Below are positions 19,633 through 32,698 of a DNA stretch of 46,809 bases, one piece after another. Source of the stretch: a bacterium. GTDB lineage: Bacteria > SZUA-79 > Acidulodesulfobacterales > Acidulodesulfobacteraceae. A program made the position numbers and the translations under genes. Position 1 is the stretch's first letter. Each line of letters opens with the position of its first letter. The stretch lies in the NCBI GenBank assembly GCA_021798875.1, contig JAJZBN010000013.1:1-46809 (forward strand), in the 5' to 3' direction. The notes beneath the pieces were generated by a model. That model did not search any database. It was not told the DNA's origin and saw only the letters and a list, made by a program, of their open reading frames with translations.

Positions 19633-19860
19633 ATGTGCCTTGCGATTCCATCTAAAGTTATAGAAATAAAAGACGAAAGCACCGTTATAGTAGATACTAT
19701 GGGTTCTAAAAGGTTAGTTTCTACGATGCTTTTGGAAGAGCCGGCAGTCATAGGCGATTACCTGCTTATACACGTGGGTTACGCAATGCAGAAAATAGAC
19801 GAAAAAGAAGCATCCGAAAGCCTTAATTTATTCAGGAAAATAGAAAGCAAAACGATGTAG
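19633..19860 (+). CDS. hypC: Hydrogenase maturation chaperone HypC
   Basis: The 75-residue product begins MCLAIPSKV, with the essential Cys2 that carries the Fe(CN)2CO unit, and keeps LLIHVGYAMQKID with H47. HypC works with HypD to assemble the iron fragment and delivers it to the large-subunit precursor. Length is normal. It opens the hypC-D-E-F cluster. The 121-base gap to hypD is long for this operon and is A/T-rich, with no evident gene. Confidence 0.95.
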   Translation: MCLAIPSKVIEIKDESTVIVDTMGSKRLVSTMLLEEPAVIGDYLLIHVGYAMQKIDEKEASESLNLFRKIESKTM

Positions 19861-19981: not shown

Positions 19982-21139
19982 ATGGAATTATATTCCGATT
20001 TTAAAAGAAAAGACGATATAAACCGATTGGCGTCCCTCATAGATTCCGAAGTTAAAAAACCGGTCAATATAATGGAAATATGCGGCGGACACACCCATTC
20101 CATTATGAAATACGGATTACATAAACTCCTTAAAGATAAAATAAATTTTCTTCATGGACCAGGATGTCCTGTTTGCGTGATGCCCGTTAGAAGAATAGAC
20201 GAGGCTATAGAGATTGCGGATTCTTTGGACGTTATACTTACTGCATACGGCGATATGATGCGTGTTCCGGGAACAAACAGTTCCCTGATAAAAGAGCGCG
20301 CAAAGGGAAAAGACGTAAGGATGGTGTATTCACCTCTCGATATTATAAAAATAGCACTCGATAAAGCAAATAAAGATAAAAAAATAGTTTTTTTTGCGAT
20401 AGGGTTTGAAACGACGACCCCTATGACGGCGGCTCTTCTCGAAGAAGTTATATCTAGGGGCATAAACAATGTTTTATTTCACGTAAACCATGTTCTCGTG
20501 CCTCCTCCTATAAAAGCTATTTTAGATTCCGGCGATAATTTAATAGACGGATTTATCTGTCCGGGGCATGTCAGCGTTATTACCGGAAGCGGAATTTATA
20601 ACGACATTCCCGATAAATACGGCAAGGCGGCCGTAATAGCCGGATTCGAGCCTTACGACATTTTAAGCGGAGTTCTTTTAATAGCGAGGCAGATTAACGA
20701 AGGCAGGCCGGCTGTTGAAATTGCTTACAAAAGAGCGGTCAAAGAAAATGGAAATAAAAAGGCGCAGGTTTTGGTGGATAAATATTTTACCGTAAGAGAC
20801 GAATTCGAATGGAGAGGGTTCGGAAATATTCCAAAAAGTGGGTTAAAATTAAGGGATGAGTTTAAAGATTTCGACGCCGAATATGTTTTTAAAGATAAAC
20901 TGAAAGAATTAGAAATAGAAATAGGGTTGAATGAAAAAACTGTCGCTCCGACTAACGATAAAACCGAAACCTGTAGAGAAAGCTTCCTGTGCAAATGCGG
21001 GGAAATATTAAAAGGAAAATCCAAGCCTGACGACTGTCCGCTGTTTGGAAAAGTATGCAATCCGGAAAATCCGGTAGGGGCATGTATGGTATCTTTCGAA
21101 GGCGCATGCGCCGCATATTATAAGTACCGCAATTTTTAG
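19982..21139 (+). CDS. hypD: Hydrogenase maturation protein HypD
   Basis: The 385-residue product carries the conserved MEICGGHTHS (C34), HGPGCPVCVMP (C62 and C65) and FICPGHVSVITG motifs, plus the C-terminal cysteine set CKCGEILKG...CPLFGKVC...CMVSFEGAC that holds the 4Fe-4S cluster. HypD is the redox scaffold on which two cyanides and CO are put on iron. Length is typical. An 18-base gap leads to hypE. Confidence 0.95.
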   Translation: MELYSDFKRKDDINRLASLIDSEVKKPVNIMEICGGHTHSIMKYGLHKLLKDKINFLHGPGCPVCVMPVRRIDEAIEIADSLDVILTAYGDMMRVPGTNSSLIKERAKGKDVRMVYSPLDIIKIALDKANKDKKIVFFAIGFETTTPMTAALLEEVISRGINNVLFHVNHVLVPPPIKAILDSGDNLIDGFICPGHVSVITGSGIYNDIPDKYGKAAVIAGFEPYDILSGVLLIARQINEGRPAVEIAYKRAVKENGNKKAQVLVDKYFTVRDEFEWRGFGNIPKSGLKLRDEFKDFDAEYVFKDKLKELEIEIGLNEKTVAPTNDKTETCRESFLCKCGEILKGKSKPDDCPLFGKVCNPENPVGACMVSFEGACAAYYKYRNF

Positions 21140-21157: not shown

Positions 21158-22285
21158 ATGGATAATAAAAAATTTGAAAAAATATTGCTTTCGCACGGCG
21201 GAGGAGGGAAAGAAACCTCCGAGCTTATAGGCGGAATTATATTTAACGGACTTTACGGACAAAACGGCAGAAACGATGATTTGTTTGATTTATACAAAAG
21301 ACGTAATGATAGCAACTTTGCAGTAAATATATATGATCAAAAAATAAAATTATTGGAAGACGCAGCGATTTTAAAATCTCCTCGAAAAATAGCATTTACT
21401 ACGGACGGTTTTACCGTAAGCCCCGTTTTTTTTAAGGGCGGCGATATAGGAAAGTTATCCGTTGCCGGAACGGTGAATGATTTGTCGGTTATGGGAGCCA
21501 AACCCCTGTTTTTAAGTCTTGGTTTGATAATCGAAGAAGGATTTGCTTTGGATGATTTAAGCAAAATCATAAAGAGCATTTCTGAAGAAGCGGCTAAAAT
21601 AGGAGTAAGGGTAGTAACCGGCGATACGAAAGTAGTTCCAACTGGAAAAGCGGACGGAATATTTATAAACACAAGCGGCATAGGCGAAGTTTTATACGAT
21701 AACCTTTCGGTTTATAACATAGAAGACGGAGATATAATTATAGTTTCCGGTAATGTGGGCGACCATGGCGCCGCCGTAATGTCGCAGAGGGAAGGAATAG
21801 AAATGGACGTTGAAATAGAAAGCGACTGCGCTTCTTTATGGGATATGATAAATACCGTTTTAAGCGGCGGCATAAAGGTGAAAGCCATAAGAGACGCAAC
21901 GAGAGGCGGACTGGCATCCGTTCTTAACGAATGGGCTATGGCGGCGAACATCGATATTTACGCCGAAGAAGATAGAATTCCGGTAAGCGGTCCGGTAAAA
22001 GGTTTTTGCGAACTGCTCGGTTTTGAACCGTACCAGCTTGCATGCGAAGGCAGGGCAGTATTTGCAGTAAAACCTGAATTTGTCGAGAAAACCATCGGAA
22101 TTCTAAGGTCGCATCCGCTTGGTAAAAATGCGGATATAATAGGAACGGCGGTTGCAAGAAGAAAAAGTGCGGACGGAAACGGCGAACGAAATAATTCTCC
22201 TGGAAAAGTTATTTTAAAAGGCATATACGGAGTTTACAGGATACTTGACTATCCTTCGGGAGAACTTTTGCCGAGAATATGCTGA
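21158..22285 (+). CDS. hypE: Carbamoyl-dehydratase HypE
   Basis: The 375-residue product has the PurM-like ATP-binding fold and the obligatory C-terminal cysteine (ends LPRIC). HypF carbamoylates this cysteine, and HypE dehydrates the thiocarbamate to thiocyanate, giving the cyanide ligands. Recognisable motifs are LSHGGGGKETSELI near the start, FTTDGFTVSPVFFKGGDIGKL, and RDATRGGLASVLNEWA. A short Asn-rich insert after residue 30 is absent from most homologues. Confidence 0.95.
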   Translation: MDNKKFEKILLSHGGGGKETSELIGGIIFNGLYGQNGRNDDLFDLYKRRNDSNFAVNIYDQKIKLLEDAAILKSPRKIAFTTDGFTVSPVFFKGGDIGKLSVAGTVNDLSVMGAKPLFLSLGLIIEEGFALDDLSKIIKSISEEAAKIGVRVVTGDTKVVPTGKADGIFINTSGIGEVLYDNLSVYNIEDGDIIIVSGNVGDHGAAVMSQREGIEMDVEIESDCASLWDMINTVLSGGIKVKAIRDATRGGLASVLNEWAMAANIDIYAEEDRIPVSGPVKGFCELLGFEPYQLACEGRAVFAVKPEFVEKTIGILRSHPLGKNADIIGTAVARRKSADGNGERNNSPGKVILKGIYGVYRILDYPSGELLPRIC

Positions 22286-22350: not shown

Positions 22351-25272
22351 ATGAATAATAGAAATTGCTATGATAATAATGCCGTAAATGTAGCAATAAA
22401 AAGAGCGACGATTATACTGTCGGGCAGGATTCAGGGAGTAGGTTTTAGGCCATTCGTTTACAGGCTTGCGGAGAAGTATGGAATAAGAGGCTATGTTTTA
22501 AACAGCAGCGAAGGCGTGGAAATTTCCGCCGAAGGCGAAGAAAACGCTCTTATTGACTTCATAAATTCTATAGATTCCGATACGGAGAAGCCTCCTCTTG
22601 CCGTAATAAAAAATAAAACCGTAGATTATGTCGATTTTATTGAACAAGATCAAATTTTTTATAAAAATTTTGAAATTAGGGAATCGGATAAAACTATTGA
22701 TGCCGCCGATAAAAACTATGAAATTAAGTTTAATAAATTAAATTTAACCATACCTCCCGATATCGCAATTTGCAGCAAATGCTTAAGTGAACTTTTCAAT
22801 CCGTCTGACAGAAGATATTTATATCCGTTTATCAACTGCACGGACTGCGGTCCAAGATTTACCATATCTAAAGAACTGCCGTACGACAGGGCTTCGACTT
22901 CCATGGATAAATTTACGATGTGTTCCGATTGCCTAACCGAATATAAAAATCCTTTAAATAGAAGATTTCATGCAGAACCAAACGGATGTTTCGCCTGTGG
23001 TCCCGAAATCGAATTTATTTTAAGCGCGGATATACCGAAAATAGATATAAACGACAAAATAAATATCCGCAAAATGAAGCCGGAAGACGGCAAGAAAAGC
23101 GGCGAAGAAAAAGGTTTCGCATTATCGAAATTAGATAGTTATGCACATAGTTTAAAGGGTATTGAAGCAGGGACGCAACAAGATGCAGATAATGTTTTAA
23201 AATTAAACCGATTAAAAAGTTTAAGCGCCGTAAAATCGTTAACGGAATTAATCAAGAACGGCGGTATCGTCTGCGTCAAAGGAATAGGCGGTTTTCATTT
23301 AATGGCGGATGCCGCAAACGACGACGCCTTAAAATTATTAAGGGAGCGCAAGAACAGGCCTAAAAAACCTTTCGCCGTAATGTTTAAAGACATCGGGCAG
23401 GCATCGGAATATGTGCGCATTGACGATATTTCCGCAGATTTGTTGAATTCTAAGGAAAGGCCTATATGTTTATTGAAAGACAGAGGCAGACTCTCTTATT
23501 ACGTAAACTGCGGACTTAAAGATATAGGAGTTTTTTTGCCATATGCGCCGCTTCACTATATTTTATTCGGTTTTTTAAATATGCCTTTAGTGGCTACGTC
23601 GGCGAATATAGGCGGAGAACCGATAGTAAAAGACAACGAGGAGGCGTTTTTAAAGCTAAAAAATATTGCGGACGGTTTTTTAATCCATAACAGGGATATT
23701 TTGAGAAGATGCGACGATTCGGTAATAAAGGTCAATGCGGCGGTCAATGAATATAATTTGATTAATGCGCATAATTACGGCACGGATGCAGATAAAAATC
23801 AACATGAAAATCATAATAAAACTGCTTCTTATTTTTTTATAAGGCGCTCAAGAGGCTATGTTCCCGAACCGTTAAATCTCCCCTTTAATTTAAAAAGAAA
23901 CGTTTTGGCGTCGGGAGCGTTTCTTAAAAACGTTTTTGCCTTAGCTTACGCCGGAGAAGATGCAGGCGCGATAGTATTAAGTCAGCACAATGGCGACTTG
24001 GACAATACCGCAGGTTTTGCTAATTTAAAAAATAATATAGAAGATTTTGAAAAATTTTACGATTTTAAACCGGAAACTGTAGTTTACGACAGTCATCCCT
24101 ATTACGAAAACACGAAATGGGCTAAAGAATATGCAAAGGAAAGAAATATTAAGGGCATATCTCTCCAGCATCACAGAGCGCACGTTATCTCGTGCATGGC
24201 GGAAAACGGATTAGGATTAAGCGAAGAAGTTTTTGGAATAGCTTTCGACGGAACTGGTTACGGAGACGACGGGACTATCTGGGGAGGAGAATTTTTTAAA
24301 GGGAAATACGATAATTTAAAAAGAATAGGCAGTTTTAAAAAATTTAGGCTTATAGGAGGAGAAAAGGCGGTTAAATCTCCAGGCAGGGTTCTTGCAGACA
24401 TTCTGTTCGGCGTTTTATCAGAAAAGGAAAATAGCGGCGCTATTTTGCATAACGGCGGCAAAAACAAAAAAGCCGGTAAATATAATGATGATGATAAATT
24501 TGTAGATACCTATATTAAATCTGAATCTAAATCTAAGTTGCAGGATATTTTTAAAAATATTTCCGTTTTAACCGGTTTTTCCGAAAAAGAAATAAGTATA
24601 TTCCATAAAATGAGTGAAAGCGGATTAAATTCCCCACTTACATCTTCATGCGGGAGAATTTTCGACGCCGTTTCATGTTTGTGCGGCTTTAAAGGCGATA
24701 TAACCTACGAAGGAGAGGCGTCCGTTTATTTAGAAAATTTGTGCAGCGAGTACGAAAATAAAAACAAAAACAATAGCGACGGAAAGCAGGATAATTTAAT
24801 AAATAAAGTAAATTCAATAACCAAAAAAGACTGTTTTAAATATGAAATACGCTATGAGAATAGGCTTGATAATAATGATATTAAGAATGCCGAGGAAAAC
24901 GCGGAGAGCGGGGATTTTTTTACGGTCGATTATTATCCTATGTTCGGCGATATTATGGAAATAGTTCAAGCTAAAAATAACGACGACGATAAAGATGAAT
25001 ACGAATACAAAGATAAAGATAAATCGGTTAACGCAGGTTTTATAGCAGAGAAGTTTATAAATACCCTCGCTATGATTATACTGGACGTCTCGTTAAAATC
25101 CGGATGTAAAAACGTCTGCATGAGCGGCGGAGTGTTTCAGAATGCTTTGCTAAGGAAAAAAGCGGAGTTTATTCTTAAAAATAACGGATTTAACGTTTAT
25201 TTTAACGAAAAAATACCTTCTAACGACGGCGGTATTGCATTGGGTCAGGCGGTTTACGGCGGGATTATTTAA
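22351..25272 (+). CDS. hypF: Carbamoyltransferase HypF, enlarged by low-complexity inserts
   Basis: The product is 973 residues, about 200 longer than usual HypF. The acylphosphatase domain is at the N-terminus (GRIQGVGFRPFVYRLA). Two zinc motifs follow (CSKCLSEL...CTDCGPRFT and CSDCLTEY...CFACGPEI), then a YrdC-like domain (KGIGGFHLMADA, RKNRPKKPFAVMF) and a Kae1-like carbamoyltransferase domain (LQHHRAHVISCMAE, FDGTGYGDDGTIWGGEF, CMSGGVFQNALL). Asn/Lys/Asp-rich inserts lie near residues 230-280, 470-490, 705-745, 815-850 and 870-895. They fall between domains or in loops, so catalysis should be kept. HypF supplies carbamoyl groups to HypE. The stop overlaps that of the convergent protease gene. 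Confidence 0.95.
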   Translation: MNNRNCYDNNAVNVAIKRATIILSGRIQGVGFRPFVYRLAEKYGIRGYVLNSSEGVEISAEGEENALIDFINSIDSDTEKPPLAVIKNKTVDYVDFIEQDQIFYKNFEIRESDKTIDAADKNYEIKFNKLNLTIPPDIAICSKCLSELFNPSDRRYLYPFINCTDCGPRFTISKELPYDRASTSMDKFTMCSDCLTEYKNPLNRRFHAEPNGCFACGPEIEFILSADIPKIDINDKINIRKMKPEDGKKSGEEKGFALSKLDSYAHSLKGIEAGTQQDADNVLKLNRLKSLSAVKSLTELIKNGGIVCVKGIGGFHLMADAANDDALKLLRERKNRPKKPFAVMFKDIGQASEYVRIDDISADLLNSKERPICLLKDRGRLSYYVNCGLKDIGVFLPYAPLHYILFGFLNMPLVATSANIGGEPIVKDNEEAFLKLKNIADGFLIHNRDILRRCDDSVIKVNAAVNEYNLINAHNYGTDADKNQHENHNKTASYFFIRRSRGYVPEPLNLPFNLKRNVLASGAFLKNVFALAYAGEDAGAIVLSQHNGDLDNTAGFANLKNNIEDFEKFYDFKPETVVYDSHPYYENTKWAKEYAKERNIKGISLQHHRAHVISCMAENGLGLSEEVFGIAFDGTGYGDDGTIWGGEFFKGKYDNLKRIGSFKKFRLIGGEKAVKSPGRVLADILFGVLSEKENSGAILHNGGKNKKAGKYNDDDKFVDTYIKSESKSKLQDIFKNISVLTGFSEKEISIFHKMSESGLNSPLTSSCGRIFDAVSCLCGFKGDITYEGEASVYLENLCSEYENKNKNNSDGKQDNLINKVNSITKKDCFKYEIRYENRLDNNDIKNAEENAESGDFFTVDYYPMFGDIMEIVQAKNNDDDKDEYEYKDKDKSVNAGFIAEKFINTLAMIILDVSLKSGCKNVCMSGGVFQNALLRKKAEFILKNNGFNVYFNEKIPSNDGGIALGQAVYGGII

Positions 25273-25757
25273 AGTTCGGCGTATTCAGGGTTTAATTGCC
25301 AGTTTATGCCGAGCGGTTTTATTTCGTCCAAAACTAATTTTTCGAGAACAGGCATGGCTTTTTTTAGAGGCTCCGAAATGTCTGTTCCAACGCCGGTGCA
25401 GTTCTCCGGAGATACTGCAAAAAAAGTTATTTTAGGATTATGCCCCTGCAATCCGCACATAGAAATTACGTCGATAAATTCTATGTCGTGCGCCGTTTTT
25501 TTCATTAAATTTACAGGAAGGTTTTCCGAATCGAACTTAAATATGCTCCCGGGTTTCTCGTCTGTTTTAAGGGCATCTACGACTATAACACAGTCGAGGC
25601 TGAATATATCGTCCAAAAGCCCGTATCCAAGAGTACTGCCGTCTATTAACCGTATATCGCCCTCGAAGATATATTTTTTTCTTAATAAATTTATAAAATG
25701 AACCCCAATTCCTTCGTCTTTTAATATCAGATTTCCTATTCCTATAATTCCCGTCAT
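25269..25757 (-). CDS. hyaD: Hydrogenase maturation endopeptidase (HyaD/HybD family)
   Basis: The 162-residue product has the nickel-sensing residues of HybD-type proteases: E15 in GIGNLILKDEGIGVH, D61 in VIVVDAL and H90 in KKTAHD. It removes the C-terminal peptide of the large subunit after nickel insertion. It is the last gene of the hydrogenase operon and follows the cytochrome b gene across a 154-base spacer full of hairpins. Its last codon overlaps the hypF stop (shared TTTAAA). No clear Shine-Dalgarno precedes ATG 25757. Confidence 0.92.
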   Translation of the reverse strand: MTGIIGIGNLILKDEGIGVHFINLLRKKYIFEGDIRLIDGSTLGYGLLDDIFSLDCVIVVDALKTDEKPGSIFKFDSENLPVNLMKKTAHDIEFIDVISMCGLQGHNPKITFFAVSPENCTGVGTDISEPLKKAMPVLEKLVLDEIKPLGINWQLNPEYAEL

Positions 25758-25911: not shown

Positions 25912-26676
25912 TCATTCAGATTCGGATTTATTTCTCATATATTTATAGCCGCCGAAGGGTATAAGTATATCACCTTCTTTCCACATTATCGAGCGCCATA
26001 CTTCGATATAGATATGATAAACTATAAATATCATAATGAGCCACATTATAAAAAGATGGACGAGAGTAACGCCCGTTAATCCGCCGAATACTACGAGCGT
26101 CCAGTCTGTAGAAAAATGCAGAAGCCACGGCCACCATGCGCCTACCGCCGAAGTTCCGGTAAAAGAAGCAACGTACATTTGAAATCCCGTAAGCATCTGA
26201 AGAAGTATAAGCAGATGAAATAACGTGAATATTATAGCATTAAGAGGATCTTGATATCTGTCGGTTTTCGGCTTGTCTTTAAGCGTGAAGTAGTGCTTCA
26301 GCATTCTCCATGCTTCTTCCAATTTATCTCCGAAAGGAATAAAACTTTTATATAACGGCTCTTTCCATGAAAAGAAAGCCAGATAAAGCCAGACGAAAAA
26401 AATAACGTCTATTATTACCGCTCCTATAAAATGAAATTCTCTCATCCAAGTCATTATGAACGCCTGATAAGTTTCGCCGGAGTTTAAAATTCCGGTAGAA
26501 AGCGAATCTGCCTGCGTCGGAGTTTTTCCGAATATAAGAAAAGGATAAGCTATGTAAAAACCAGTAATAATATTATTAATAATCGCCGCAAAGAACGACC
26601 AGTGTATAATTCTTTTTATAACCGTCATTCTGTGTACCAACTGAATCTCGCCGTATTTGCTATTTTTATTTTGCAT
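25912..26676 (-). CDS. hyaC: [NiFe] hydrogenase cytochrome b subunit
   Basis: The 254-residue integral membrane protein has four hydrophobic helices at about 23-47, 83-105, 147-169 and 195-224. Candidate haem ligands are H25 (RIIHWSFF), H82, H154, H187, H207 and H221 (VYHIYIEVW). It belongs to the HyaC/HupC di-haem cytochrome b group that accepts electrons from the small subunit and reduces quinone. The gene lies downstream of the large subunit in the same operon, as in group 1 uptake hydrogenases. Confidence 0.9.
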   Translation of the reverse strand: MQNKNSKYGEIQLVHRMTVIKRIIHWSFFAAIINNIITGFYIAYPFLIFGKTPTQADSLSTGILNSGETYQAFIMTWMREFHFIGAVIIDVIFFVWLYLAFFSWKEPLYKSFIPFGDKLEEAWRMLKHYFTLKDKPKTDRYQDPLNAIIFTLFHLLILLQMLTGFQMYVASFTGTSAVGAWWPWLLHFSTDWTLVVFGGLTGVTLVHLFIMWLIMIFIVYHIYIEVWRSIMWKEGDILIPFGGYKYMRNKSESE

Positions 26677-26771: not shown

Positions 26772-28457
26772 TTAACATATTTTATATTTTTTTATCTCGT
26801 TTGTTTTAGGGTCTATTAAATGAACCGCGCATGCAAGACACGGGTCGAAAGAGTGAACCGTACGCAAAATTTCGAGCGGCTGCGATACTTTTGCAAGTTT
26901 TACGCCTACTAACGACGCTTCATATGCCCCCGGATTATTGAAAGCGTCTCTGGGAGATGCGTTCCATGTAGTCGGGACGACTATCTGGTAGTGCGTAATC
27001 TTTTTGTCCTTTATCCTTACCCAGTGGCCGAGCGAACCCCTCGGAGCTTCGTCTAATCCTATACCTATAATCTCTTTCGAGGGCATATCGTATTTTGTCC
27101 AGCTTGTCTGGTCGACCGCTGCGTTTTTAATCAGCTCGAGCGTCCATGATTCCAATGCGTCGGCAACGTATTTTGCTTCTATTCCTCTTGCCGCCGTTCT
27201 TCCAAGCGTTGAAAAGAGTGCGGTTACCGGCAAACCCGATGTTTTTAGGACGTAGTCCACCAAAGATTTTATTGTTTTATTGCCTTTTGCGTATGCGACT
27301 AACGTTCTTGCAAGCGGTCCAACTTCCATAGCTTTGTTTTCATAGCGCGGCGATTTAATCCAACTGTATTTTTCGTCTTCTTTAAGACTGCCGTCTTTGT
27401 TTAATCCGGTATAATCGGGATCGGTTATTCCTACATTAGGATTAAGCCCGATTTTTTCGTTAGGATACTTATACCATGAATGGGTTACGAATTCCGTTAT
27501 CTTTTTTTCGTCTAACTTATGAACTTTACTTAAATCCCTGTCGAATATGACACCTCTCATTAAAAAATAATCATCAGGATTTTCGTCGTCCGTCTGAGGA
27601 AACGCGCCGTAAGAAAGATAATTTTTTAGTCCGCCGCCTATTCCCTGAATCGCTTCTTCTTTATAAAATTTGGCCGCAGTTAATAAATCAGGAATGTAGG
27701 CGTTATTAACGAAGTCCGTAATTTTTCCTATCCTGAATAGTATGTCGTCCATTCTTTGAGGATTAATTATATCGGCTATAGAAGATATTCCGCCGACTAC
27801 GCAGGTTTGAGGATGTGGGTCTTTAGCCCCCAGAATAGCAATAATTTGTGCGGGTATCCTTAAAATATTAAGATTATCTAAATAATGGGAAGCTATTAAA
27901 AGATTTCCTTCCGGCGGAAGTTTATAGGAAGGATTGCCCCAGTAACCTCCTGCAAAAGGCCCAAGCTGACCGGATTTAACGAAAGCGCCCAGCCTTGATT
28001 TTACTTCTTCGAATCTTGCAAGACTTGCATTATAGGGCGTTTTAGTGTAAGCATAGGCTAAGTCCATGGTTTTTTTCGGGTCGGCTTGAAGCGCCGATAC
28101 GATATCCACCCAGTCTAATCCGGCAAGCTGGTAAAAATGGACTAAGTGGTCCTGCACCATTTGAGCGCCCTTAAGTATATTTCTTGCAATTCTCGCGTTT
28201 TTTGGCGGATGTATTCCCAGAGCGTTTTCTACCGCCCATGTTGCGGCTTCGTAATGAGCATAAGTGCATACTCCGCATATTCTCTGAGCAAAAAGTCCTG
28301 CATCTTCGGGAGCCCTTCCGTTAAGTATAAGTTCTATACCTCTAAAAAGAGTACTGGAAGAGTATGCTTCGCTTATTTCGCTGCCGTTGAGAATTGCTTC
28401 TATTCTGAGATGCCCTTCTATTCTCGTCACGGGATCGACTATGATTTTTGTTGCCAT
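26772..28457 (-). CDS. hyaB: [NiFe] hydrogenase large subunit
   Basis: The 561-residue product has both nickel-binding motifs: RICGVCTYAHY with C61 and C64, and DPCLACAVH with C540 and C543. After H546 a 15-residue tail ends in KYKIC; this is the peptide expected to be removed by the HyaD-type protease encoded downstream. GGAGG precedes ATG. The sequence pattern is that of group 1 membrane-bound uptake enzymes. The catalytic arginine region and the EAPRGSLGHW motif (DEAPRGSLGHWV) are intact, so an active H2-oxidising centre is expected. The enzyme is exported as a dimer using the small subunit's signal. Confidence 0.95.
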   Translation of the reverse strand: MATKIIVDPVTRIEGHLRIEAILNGSEISEAYSSSTLFRGIELILNGRAPEDAGLFAQRICGVCTYAHYEAATWAVENALGIHPPKNARIARNILKGAQMVQDHLVHFYQLAGLDWVDIVSALQADPKKTMDLAYAYTKTPYNASLARFEEVKSRLGAFVKSGQLGPFAGGYWGNPSYKLPPEGNLLIASHYLDNLNILRIPAQIIAILGAKDPHPQTCVVGGISSIADIINPQRMDDILFRIGKITDFVNNAYIPDLLTAAKFYKEEAIQGIGGGLKNYLSYGAFPQTDDENPDDYFLMRGVIFDRDLSKVHKLDEKKITEFVTHSWYKYPNEKIGLNPNVGITDPDYTGLNKDGSLKEDEKYSWIKSPRYENKAMEVGPLARTLVAYAKGNKTIKSLVDYVLKTSGLPVTALFSTLGRTAARGIEAKYVADALESWTLELIKNAAVDQTSWTKYDMPSKEIIGIGLDEAPRGSLGHWVRIKDKKITHYQIVVPTTWNASPRDAFNNPGAYEASLVGVKLAKVSQPLEILRTVHSFDPCLACAVHLIDPKTNEIKKYKIC

Positions 28458-28562: not shown

Positions 28563-29861
28563 TTATTCCTTCTTATTATCGTCGTTTTTTTCCGAATCTT
28601 CGTTTTTAGATTTCTTATGCTCTTTTTTCTTTTTAATTCCGGTATATATTGCGTGTGCTGCAATACCGGCGCCTGCCGCCGCAAACAATCCCACTCCGAA
28701 TTCGTCTGCGGTCGCTTCTACGCCTGGAATTATAATTTTTGCGTCTGCGTTAGGCTTCTCGAACGGCGTCATTCTGTCCCAAAATGCAGGCTGAGAACAT
28801 CCTATGCATCCGTGACCAGCCCTCATTGGAAAACTGATATCCTGATTATATTCTGCGATAGTGCAGTTATTCCAAGTAAACGGACCTTTACAACCCATCA
28901 TATACAGGCAGTATTGTTTTTTGGCTCCCTCGTCGCCCCATTCTCTGACGTATTCGCCGGCTTCGAAATGACCCCTTCTATAGCAGTTATCGTGAAGCCT
29001 GCCGGAATACGCCCATAACGGACGGCCGATACTGTCCAACTGTGGCGCTTTTCCTATCAGTATATATTCTACTAAAGTGCCTACAAGGTTTACCGGATTT
29101 GCTGGACAAGCTGGTATATTTATAACGCTTCTGTCTGTAACGGAACTTAATCCTACCGCAGACGTGGGATTTGGATTGGCAGCGGGTATTCCGCCGTAGG
29201 CGGCGCAGTTTCCTACCGCTATAATAACGCCGGCATGTTTTGCAGTTTCTTTAGCGATTTTTAAACCGGTATCGCCTTTTGCCCCTATGGTAAGGAATTT
29301 CCCGTCCATTCCGGTAGGTATAGCACCTTCGACTACAAGTATATATTTACCTTTATATTTTTTAACCGTCTCGGTTCTTCTCGCTTCCGCCTGATAGCCT
29401 GCGGGAGCCATTATTGATTCCATGTAGTTTACGCTGACGTAATTAAGTATAATTTCAGCCGGAGTAGGGTGGGCAGTTCTTAGAAAGCCTTCCGTATTTC
29501 CCATGCAGTCTGCCATATCGAGCCATATAAAAGGTGTTCTTGTTAGAATATTTGCGGCTCTTGCTACTCTTGGTTTGAATATATAAGGAAGCATCAAAGC
29601 TGAGGTTAAAAAAGCGGTCCATTTAAGGAAATCTCTTCTTGAAACGCCGTAAATTCCTAAAATATTAGGAAGGTTTTCTTCTTTATCTTTTTTATCGCTG
29701 AAGTATTCTTTTTCCAGTGCGTCTAATCTGTCATCTACTTTTTTTAAAACTTCATCTGGTTTTTTTGATATAAATCTTAGAGGATCCCATTTAAAATCCG
29801 TGTCGGGATTATTTCCGTTAGGATTGGAATCGTTAGAATCGGAATGATGTTCGCTTGCCAT
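28563..29861 (-). CDS. hyaA: [NiFe] hydrogenase small subunit, Tat-exported and membrane-anchored
   Basis: The 432-residue product has a twin-arginine signal SRRDFLKW at 74-81 followed by a hydrophobic stretch and an RVARA cleavage site, so it is exported folded with the large subunit. Unusually, 70 polar residues precede the signal. FeS ligands are: proximal C119, C219 and C252, with N122 where a Cys normally completes CxxC; distal H290, C293, C318 and C324; medial C333, C352 and C355. A C-terminal helix (about 388-407, GVGLFAAAGAGIAAHAIYTG) anchors it in the membrane beside the cytochrome b. The tail is Lys/Glu/Asp-rich. A GGAGG lies before ATG. Confidence 0.93.
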   Translation of the reverse strand: MASEHHSDSNDSNPNGNNPDTDFKWDPLRFISKKPDEVLKKVDDRLDALEKEYFSDKKDKEENLPNILGIYGVSRRDFLKWTAFLTSALMLPYIFKPRVARAANILTRTPFIWLDMADCMGNTEGFLRTAHPTPAEIILNYVSVNYMESIMAPAGYQAEARRTETVKKYKGKYILVVEGAIPTGMDGKFLTIGAKGDTGLKIAKETAKHAGVIIAVGNCAAYGGIPAANPNPTSAVGLSSVTDRSVINIPACPANPVNLVGTLVEYILIGKAPQLDSIGRPLWAYSGRLHDNCYRRGHFEAGEYVREWGDEGAKKQYCLYMMGCKGPFTWNNCTIAEYNQDISFPMRAGHGCIGCSQPAFWDRMTPFEKPNADAKIIIPGVEATADEFGVGLFAAAGAGIAAHAIYTGIKKKKEHKKSKNEDSEKNDDNKKE

Positions 29862-30040
29862 ACAGCCTCCTTAATTCTATATTAAATTGCAGATAAATTA
29901 ATGAACAGAAAAAAACAAATATTTTTATTATATATTTGAGCAATAAATGTTATATAATGTTTTCTATAATCATATCGCAAAATTATAAAATGTCAAATGA
30001 ATTTTTTATATTAATTTTTTATTTTTTTTTATAAATTTTA

Positions 30041-30280
30041 ATGCATGAAATTTCCGTAGCACTCGAAATAATAGATACCCTTGAAGACAACGGATATTTA
30101 ACCGGCGTAAATAAAGTAGATTCGATTAAACTTATTATAGGCAGATATTCGGGAATAGACAAAAATTATCTGTCTTTTGCGTTTCAAAATATCAACGACG
30201 AAAGATTTAAAGAAGTTTCGCTGGAGTTTATCTCAAACGATTCCGATGAAATTAAAATAGAAGAAATTATAATAGATTGA
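30041..30280 (+). CDS. hypA: HypA nickel chaperone lacking the zinc-binding domain
   Basis: The 79-residue product is shorter than the usual 113-120. It starts MHEISVALEI, with the nickel-binding MHE, and keeps SIKLIIGRYSGIDKNYLSFAFQNI. It then goes from VSLEFI straight to the normal C-terminal strand EIKIEEIIID. The whole zinc domain, with its two CxxC pairs, is missing, so the deletion removes exactly one structural module. It precedes hypB and diverges from the hydrogenase operon. Nickel binding could remain, but the link between zinc site and nickel release is lost. No strong Shine-Dalgarno is visible. It could alternatively be a decayed gene, but the two retained ends argue for selection. 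Confidence 0.85.
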   Translation: MHEISVALEIIDTLEDNGYLTGVNKVDSIKLIIGRYSGIDKNYLSFAFQNINDERFKEVSLEFISNDSDEIKIEEIIID

Positions 30281-30329: not shown

Positions 30330-31217
30330 ATGCCAAACTCTAACGGTATTAGCCGCGGAAGTTCAGGCAGAGGCGGTGCAGGCAAAGACATAAGAGCGTT
30401 TGGAAGCGGTGGCGGCAAACATTTAGGCAGAACGGGAACGGGCGGAAGATCATTGACGGTACGTTTGAACGCTTTAGAATCGAATGAAGTTATCGCAGGA
30501 AAAAATAAAGCTTTATTCGGGGAGGCTTTTGTTATTAATTTTTTAAGCTCGCCTGGATCGGGAAAGACTTCTTTGGTGGAATCCATAGTGCCAGTTTTAA
30601 AATCAGAAGGCTTAAATATAGCAGTTATAGAAGGCGACGTCGAAACGGATTTGGATAAACGTCGGATAGACGCTTTAAACATCCCTGCATATCAGATTAT
30701 TACCAATGGAACATGCCATTTAGACGCAAATATGGTGCATACGTCTTTAGATAATTTAAACATAAATGAAGCCGACGTAATTTTTATAGAAAATGTCGGA
30801 AATCTCGTATGTCCGACTTCTTACAATTTAGGAGAAGATATGAAAGCGGTCGTGCTTTCGGTAACCGAAGGCGACGATAAACCGTTAAAATATCCTGCGG
30901 CTTTTTATAAATCAAAAGTTATGATAATAAACAAAATAGATCTGCTTCCGTTTATTGACTCGGATGTTTCAAAAATAAAAGAAAACGCTCTGTCTATAAA
31001 TAAAGAACTTATAATTTTTGAAACATCTTGCAAAAGAAAGATAAACACGCACGGCACTTTGCTTAGCAGTCCAGATGGTAGTATTGAAGATGCACGCTGG
31101 TCGGACGAAATAGATAAAGGAATTTTGGACTTTGCTTCATTCATAAAGGAAAAAGCAAAATTAAAAGTTGCGGAGTTTAAAGGCAGCTCAGGCTCAGGTG
31201 CAGGTGTCTATTTATAA
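30330..31217 (+). CDS. hypB: HypB GTPase for nickel insertion
   Basis: The 295-residue product has the GTPase motifs SSPGSGKTSL (73-82), EGDVETDLDKRRI, ENVGNLVCP and NKIDLL. The metal-binding pair C129-H130 in NGTCHLDANMVH at the dimer interface is kept. The N-terminal 40 residues are Gly/Ser/Arg-rich with a single His, not His-rich, and lack the CxxCGC nickel motif, so nickel storage is unlikely. It would act with HypA to deliver nickel to HyaB. A strong GGAGG lies six bases before ATG. Confidence 0.93.
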   Translation: MPNSNGISRGSSGRGGAGKDIRAFGSGGGKHLGRTGTGGRSLTVRLNALESNEVIAGKNKALFGEAFVINFLSSPGSGKTSLVESIVPVLKSEGLNIAVIEGDVETDLDKRRIDALNIPAYQIITNGTCHLDANMVHTSLDNLNINEADVIFIENVGNLVCPTSYNLGEDMKAVVLSVTEGDDKPLKYPAAFYKSKVMIINKIDLLPFIDSDVSKIKENALSINKELIIFETSCKRKINTHGTLLSSPDGSIEDARWSDEIDKGILDFASFIKEKAKLKVAEFKGSSGSGAGVYL

Positions 31218-32507: not shown

Positions 32508-32672
32508 TTATTCCGGAACCAGGGTAAATTTAATGATAGCCGCGCCGCAAACTGGACATACCCAGAAAGAGGGGAGTTTTTCGAAAGGCGTTCCGGCAGG
32601 TATTCCGCCGTCTGGGTCTCCTTTTTCTGGGTCGTATATATAATCGCATACTTCGCATCTGTATTTTTGCAT
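32508..32672 (-). CDS. Rubredoxin
   Basis: The 54-residue product has the Fe(Cys)4 motifs: [17 protein letters not shown] near the N-terminus and WVCPVCGAA near the C-terminus. It carries single electrons in the cytoplasm, commonly to oxygen- or superoxide-detoxifying enzymes in anaerobes. Its C-terminus (IIKFTLVPE) differs from the usual KxxFE. GGAG lies seven bases before ATG. The methyltransferase gene downstream ends with its start 27 bases away, in the opposite sense only by distance, so co-transcription is unclear. Confidence 0.92.
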
Positions 32673-32698
32673 TTTAGTCTCCATAAATTGTTTTATGT

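Follow-up and report, generated by a model that had tools for sequence, protein, structure and literature searches.

The window, a stretch of 46,809 nucleotides from a bacterial genome, carries a hypA gene (positions 30041 to 30280, plus strand) that encodes HypA minus its zinc module. We consider it likely that this protein is the only HypA of its genome and a functional, zinc-free nickel metallochaperone reduced to the nickel-binding domain, which loads a hydrogenase via HypB.

A HypA without its zinc module

The hypA product has 79 aa, begins with MHE, ends with EIKIEEIIID, and contains no cysteine and a single histidine. Its elements follow each other in the order MHE, helix, strand, helix, strand, and final strand, the nickel domain being joined directly to the latter. 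Pfam entry PF01155 aligns residues 1 to 63 with profile positions 1 to 64 of 112 (41 bits; cut-off, 28.9), and alignment with full HypAs revealed that the entire CxxC...CxxC block is gone and that EIKIEEIIID is rejoined in frame. An earlier note on this DNA had described a HypA with its zinc domain cleanly removed and with the MHE nickel site, the central region, and the final strand EIKIEEIIID intact; it was correct on every structural point, as the protein has no CxxC pairs and the profile match stops at position 64. The strict NCBIfam HypA model (TIGR00100) gave 30.2 bits, against a cut-off of 88.1, and thus misses the short HypA, so that such genomes may be annotated as having no HypA.

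In Helicobacter pylori HypA, the nickel-site residues are M1, H2, E3, and D40 (PMC5557546). The corresponding codons of the window gene are at positions 30041 to 30049 (MHE, plus strand) and 30158 to 30160 (Asp40, plus strand). H. pylori HypA (PDB entries 6G81 and 2KDX) is similar to the window HypA in its nickel-domain fold, in these four positions, and in its hydrogenase context, but its CxxC...CxxC zinc module, which spans roughly 40 residues and contains cysteines needed for activity, has no counterpart in the window protein.

We built an AlphaFold2 model of the window HypA with a 21-sequence alignment. The model has a pLDDT of 89 and a helix-strand-helix-strand-strand arrangement, with strands at residues 60 to 66 and 71 to 78. 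The predicted secondary structure and the alignment with full HypA place a turn at residues 67 to 70 (DSDE; positions 30239 to 30250, plus strand), where the zinc module would sit. The first 14 matches of a Foldseek search against the PDB were all HypA (TMq, 0.61 to 0.70), with 6g81, 3a43, 5aun, and 5yxy among the top ones. The nickel domain of Thermococcus HypA (3A43; HypAB, 5AUN; HyhL-HypA, 5YXY) superposes on the model with a TMq of 0.63 to 0.64 and a root mean square deviation of about 2.5 Å; unlike the window HypA, the Thermococcus protein has a zinc module and also His98, the residue that completes the nickel site of HypAB. In its predicted structure, the window HypA has the HypA nickel-domain fold, and a short turn replaces the zinc module. 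The Pfam score, the fold match, and the operon context and purifying selection described below together exclude a chance match.

A genome-wide profile search found no second HypA in the genome of origin, which is 97% complete. The only other match in this genome was a 51-aa zinc ribbon (L002:1516-1671), which is encoded directly upstream of a TnpB-like gene and matches the HypA zinc region with a score below the threshold. HypA might conceivably be split, with a separate small zinc-ribbon protein joining the short HypA and providing the zinc function in trans, and the HypA profile does match unrelated small zinc ribbons in genomes G000 (C97), G023, G025, and G028. However, these matches are weak (about 20 bits) and differ by genome, the one in G000 being beside a TnpB-like gene, and no conserved CxxC-CxxC ORF was found near hypA in 21 loci, with only rubredoxin in three of them. 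A split HypA is, in our view, very improbable. The rubredoxin gene of the window (32508 to 32684, minus strand) is located downstream, and among the relatives, only the closest ones (L059 and L064) have such a gene near hypA.

Conservation and hydrogenase context in the phylum

The earlier note had proposed a search of relatives for the same short HypA, and we found the 79-aa protein in 22 of the 30 phylum genomes (58 to 97% identity) and a full-length HypA in none of the 30. All extracted copies, which come from independent assemblies, have exactly 79 aa and the same architecture. Residues M1, H2, E3, and D40 are invariant in 21/21 copies spanning the genera of the phylum; none of these copies contains a CxxC pair, and His2 is the sole histidine in 20 of them. 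The median dN/dS of hypA was 0.16 (130 pairs), which indicates that the gene is under purifying selection. A decaying remnant or a sequencing or assembly deletion, for which length alone speaks, is refuted by the 22 independent genomes, the constant 79 aa, the purifying selection, and the in-frame final strand, and we give this explanation practically no credence. An assembly deletion in particular is ruled out by the identical 79-aa architecture in independent phylum assemblies. The note had named a zinc domain in all relatives together with a deletion here, or a second full HypA gene, as grounds for dropping its claim; instead, the relatives share the short form, and neither the genome nor the phylum has a full HypA.

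In 22 of 22 loci examined, hypA is divergent from the gene for the small subunit of a [NiFe] hydrogenase and upstream of hypB. The partner hydrogenase is of the group-1 [NiFe] type, and the neighboring HypB is of the GTPase type. Phylum genomes without this hydrogenase also have no short hypA, with the single exception of G001, a fragmented genome in which the contig is broken at the large subunit. In the window, the minus strand carries the genes for the small subunit (group 1 type; 28563 to 29861), divergent from hypA, the large subunit (26772 to 28457; PF00374, 672 bits), a cytochrome b subunit (25912 to 26676; assigned by position and sequence), and a maturation protease (25269 to 25757; PF01750). 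The plus strand carries hypC (19633 to 19860; MCLAIP start), hypD (19982 to 21139), and hypE (21158 to 22285), the last two assigned by sequence and position, and hypF (22351 to 25272), with its zinc fingers intact. The otherwise complete hyp set that had been reported beside the short hypA is thus present (hypBCDEF). By eye, the hypA leader (29862 to 30040) is AT rich and has no clear Shine-Dalgarno sequence, as in nearly all phylum copies, unlike the window hypB, which has AGGAGG; a promoter-like TTGACA-N16-TATGAT pair for the hydrogenase operon is visible on the divergent strand of the same region.

The window hypB gene (30330 to 31217, plus strand) encodes a P-loop protein of the GTPase type (TIGR00073, 219 bits; cut-off, 121.2) with the docking pair LxV (SLTV) and the GTCH and NLVCP ligands, and it has no CxxCGC. 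Conserved features of the phylum HypBs are the Cys-His and Cys ligands of the G domain (GTCH and NLVCP) and the hydrophobic docking pair located where the GTPase domain begins; the CxxCGC nickel motif is absent. The hydrophobic docking pair of HypB is needed for HypA binding in Archaeoglobus fulgidus and Escherichia coli (PMC3287977). Thermococcus HypB, in contrast to that of the window, is an ATPase. The HypB N terminus (30330 to 30460) is Gly/Ser/Arg rich, variable among relatives, and missing in some genera.

Proposed nickel delivery by the short HypA

For nickel binding, HypB docking, and delivery, we infer the following route. Ni(II) would be held at the N terminus of the short HypA by the Met1 amine, His2, Glu3, and possibly Asp40. 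Docking on HypB would take place at the hydrophobic pair where the GTPase domain begins, and the Cys-His/Cys site of HypB would pass nickel to the short HypA after GTP hydrolysis. This protein would then transfer nickel to the immature large subunit via the nickel-site face used in archaeal HypA-HyhL. A review (PMC7055735) describes the N-terminal tail of HyhL as contacting the HypA nickel site in that complex, so the delivery face is kept in the short HypA. In H. pylori, the zinc module adjusts nickel affinity to pH and possibly influences which partner is chosen; here, the short turn would take the place of this module, which would be dispensable. A different nickel-delivery mode, as the earlier note suggested from the sequence, is possible; the conservation of the nickel site and of the HypB docking features favors the standard route, but without a zinc gate.

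Two observations count against a working chaperone. The H. pylori zinc-site mutants C74A, C91A, and C94A have 9 to 12% of hydrogenase activity, which is the level of the hypA knockout (PMC5557546), so that H. pylori HypA is affected by loss of the zinc site. Besides, according to PMC7055735, His98 of Thermococcus kodakarensis HypA completes the HypAB nickel site, whereas 20 of the 21 phylum copies have only His2. A 2019 review states a zinc site for all HypA proteins, and we found no description of a natural zinc-less HypA in open-access papers (subscription papers were outside the search). Since the short form is conserved throughout the phylum and recurs elsewhere, hydrogenase maturation is probably not always dependent on the zinc half of HypA. 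After the mutagenesis in H. pylori, the zinc site looked indispensable. A conserved HypA that naturally has no such module makes it possible to ask directly what the zinc domain does (affinity tuning, pH sensing, or partner choice), and a minimal chaperone of 79 aa would be useful in structural studies and in the maturation of hydrogenases in heterologous hosts.

Alternatively, the short HypA could be a partner or scaffold of HypB, as a GTPase activator or a recruiter of the large subunit, that carries no nickel, HypB itself loading the hydrogenase directly. E. coli HypA does scaffold HypB to the hydrogenase large subunit (PMC7055735), and the short HypA has no second histidine for a high-affinity site of the HypAB type. 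Nevertheless, MHE and D40 are strictly retained in the 21 phylum copies, most other zinc-less HypAs also have MHE, and several of the latter occur in genomes without HypB, so that not every zinc-less HypA can be purely a partner of HypB. We consider this alternative unlikely and favor the zinc-free nickel chaperone.

The earlier note had further, and tentatively, connected the minimal HypA with adaptation to low pH or to high nickel. The zinc site of H. pylori HypA senses pH (PMC7055735), and the public contigs closest to the window belong to metagenome-assembled genomes that we guess to be acid mine drainage bins; as a guess, too, the genome of origin may resemble acid mine drainage genomes of the Candidatus Acidulodesulfobacterales type. 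Yet the flanking histidines that respond to pH are not a general feature of HypAs (PMC7055735). Moreover, the short form has gone to fixation in the phylum and turns up again in many families unrelated to it, a pattern that would speak for lineage history more than for any one habitat. Loss of the zinc module as an adaptation specific to acid or to metal-rich sites is thus not supported, and we hold it to be quite improbable.

Zinc-less HypAs in other lineages

We reexamined low-scoring HypA matches in a broad sample of 386 genomes. Outside the phylum, a zinc-less HypA was found in 12 of about 167 genomes with a HypA over the cut-off (∼7%), an approximate proportion, as matches between about 1e-19 and 1e-14 were taken as full length from their scores. 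The short HypA had been called unusual: it is a conserved variant without the zinc module, but it is less singular than this implied. In the phylum of G310, 11 of the 13 genomes with a HypA over the cut-off have a zinc-less form and 2 have a full HypA; in that of G170, the numbers are 8 zinc-less HypAs versus 22 with the zinc region. Short and full HypAs can thus occur in one phylum, with related genomes retaining the same form. Zinc-less HypA loci were seen in several other bacterial families (L080 to L092, L135 to L143, and L168 to L173).

The zinc-less HypAs of other lineages (e.g., L080, L084, L135, L142, and L171) resemble the window HypA in size (80 to 87 aa, a few with longer tails), in the MHE start of most of them, in the absence of the module at the same joint, and in their location, mostly in hyp/[NiFe] operons. 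They differ from it in sequence, being about 15 to 30% identical, and in that most of the genomes tested have no GTPase HypB, the exceptions being G288 and G153, with a sub-threshold match in G185. In L079, an apparent match to the zinc region was rejected as a coding remnant because it runs through three stops. In a HypA tree of 79 columns, the copies of the window phylum group together except for one long-branch full-length row. The zinc-less HypAs of other lineages possibly have separate origins from the window form; the tree is poorly resolved and cannot decide the number of losses, nor a single origin.

We tentatively entertain, as a possibility short of an even chance, that zinc-less HypAs form a distinct, recurrent class of nickel metallochaperones without zinc gating, used in at least three maturation contexts. 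These would be one with a GTPase HypB, as in the window phylum; one with HypF and HypE, usually HypD, and no HypB (e.g., G310 and G157); and a cassette with a HypC-HydE-like fusion and no HypB, HypD, or HypF. Were this reading true, the minimal cassette would imply an unrecognized route to the Fe(CN)2CO center of [NiFe] hydrogenase.

The cassette belongs to one zinc-less HypA clade (support, 100/98) that sits in a sulfhydrogenase-like [NiFe] operon. In 4 of 4 loci examined, hypA is followed by a gene for a protein with a HypC-like start and a CxxxCxxC radical SAM motif (L101:9268-10593; L099:9347-10648; L104:4734-6047, minus strand; L106:7846-9147, minus strand), the second part of which is HydE-like in all three scanned (L099, L101, and L104). 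No HypD, HypF zinc fingers, or HypE over the cut-off was found in the ten genomes of the clade, and no HypB was found in the four tested. The L101 fusion matches PF01455 on residues 1 to 64, TIGR03956 with 249.6 bits (cut-off, 254.6), and solved HydE chains with 243 bits. The large subunit of the L101 hydrogenase keeps its four cysteines. Together, these findings suggest that the Fe(CN)2CO unit may be assembled by another route in genomes with the HypC-HydE cassette.
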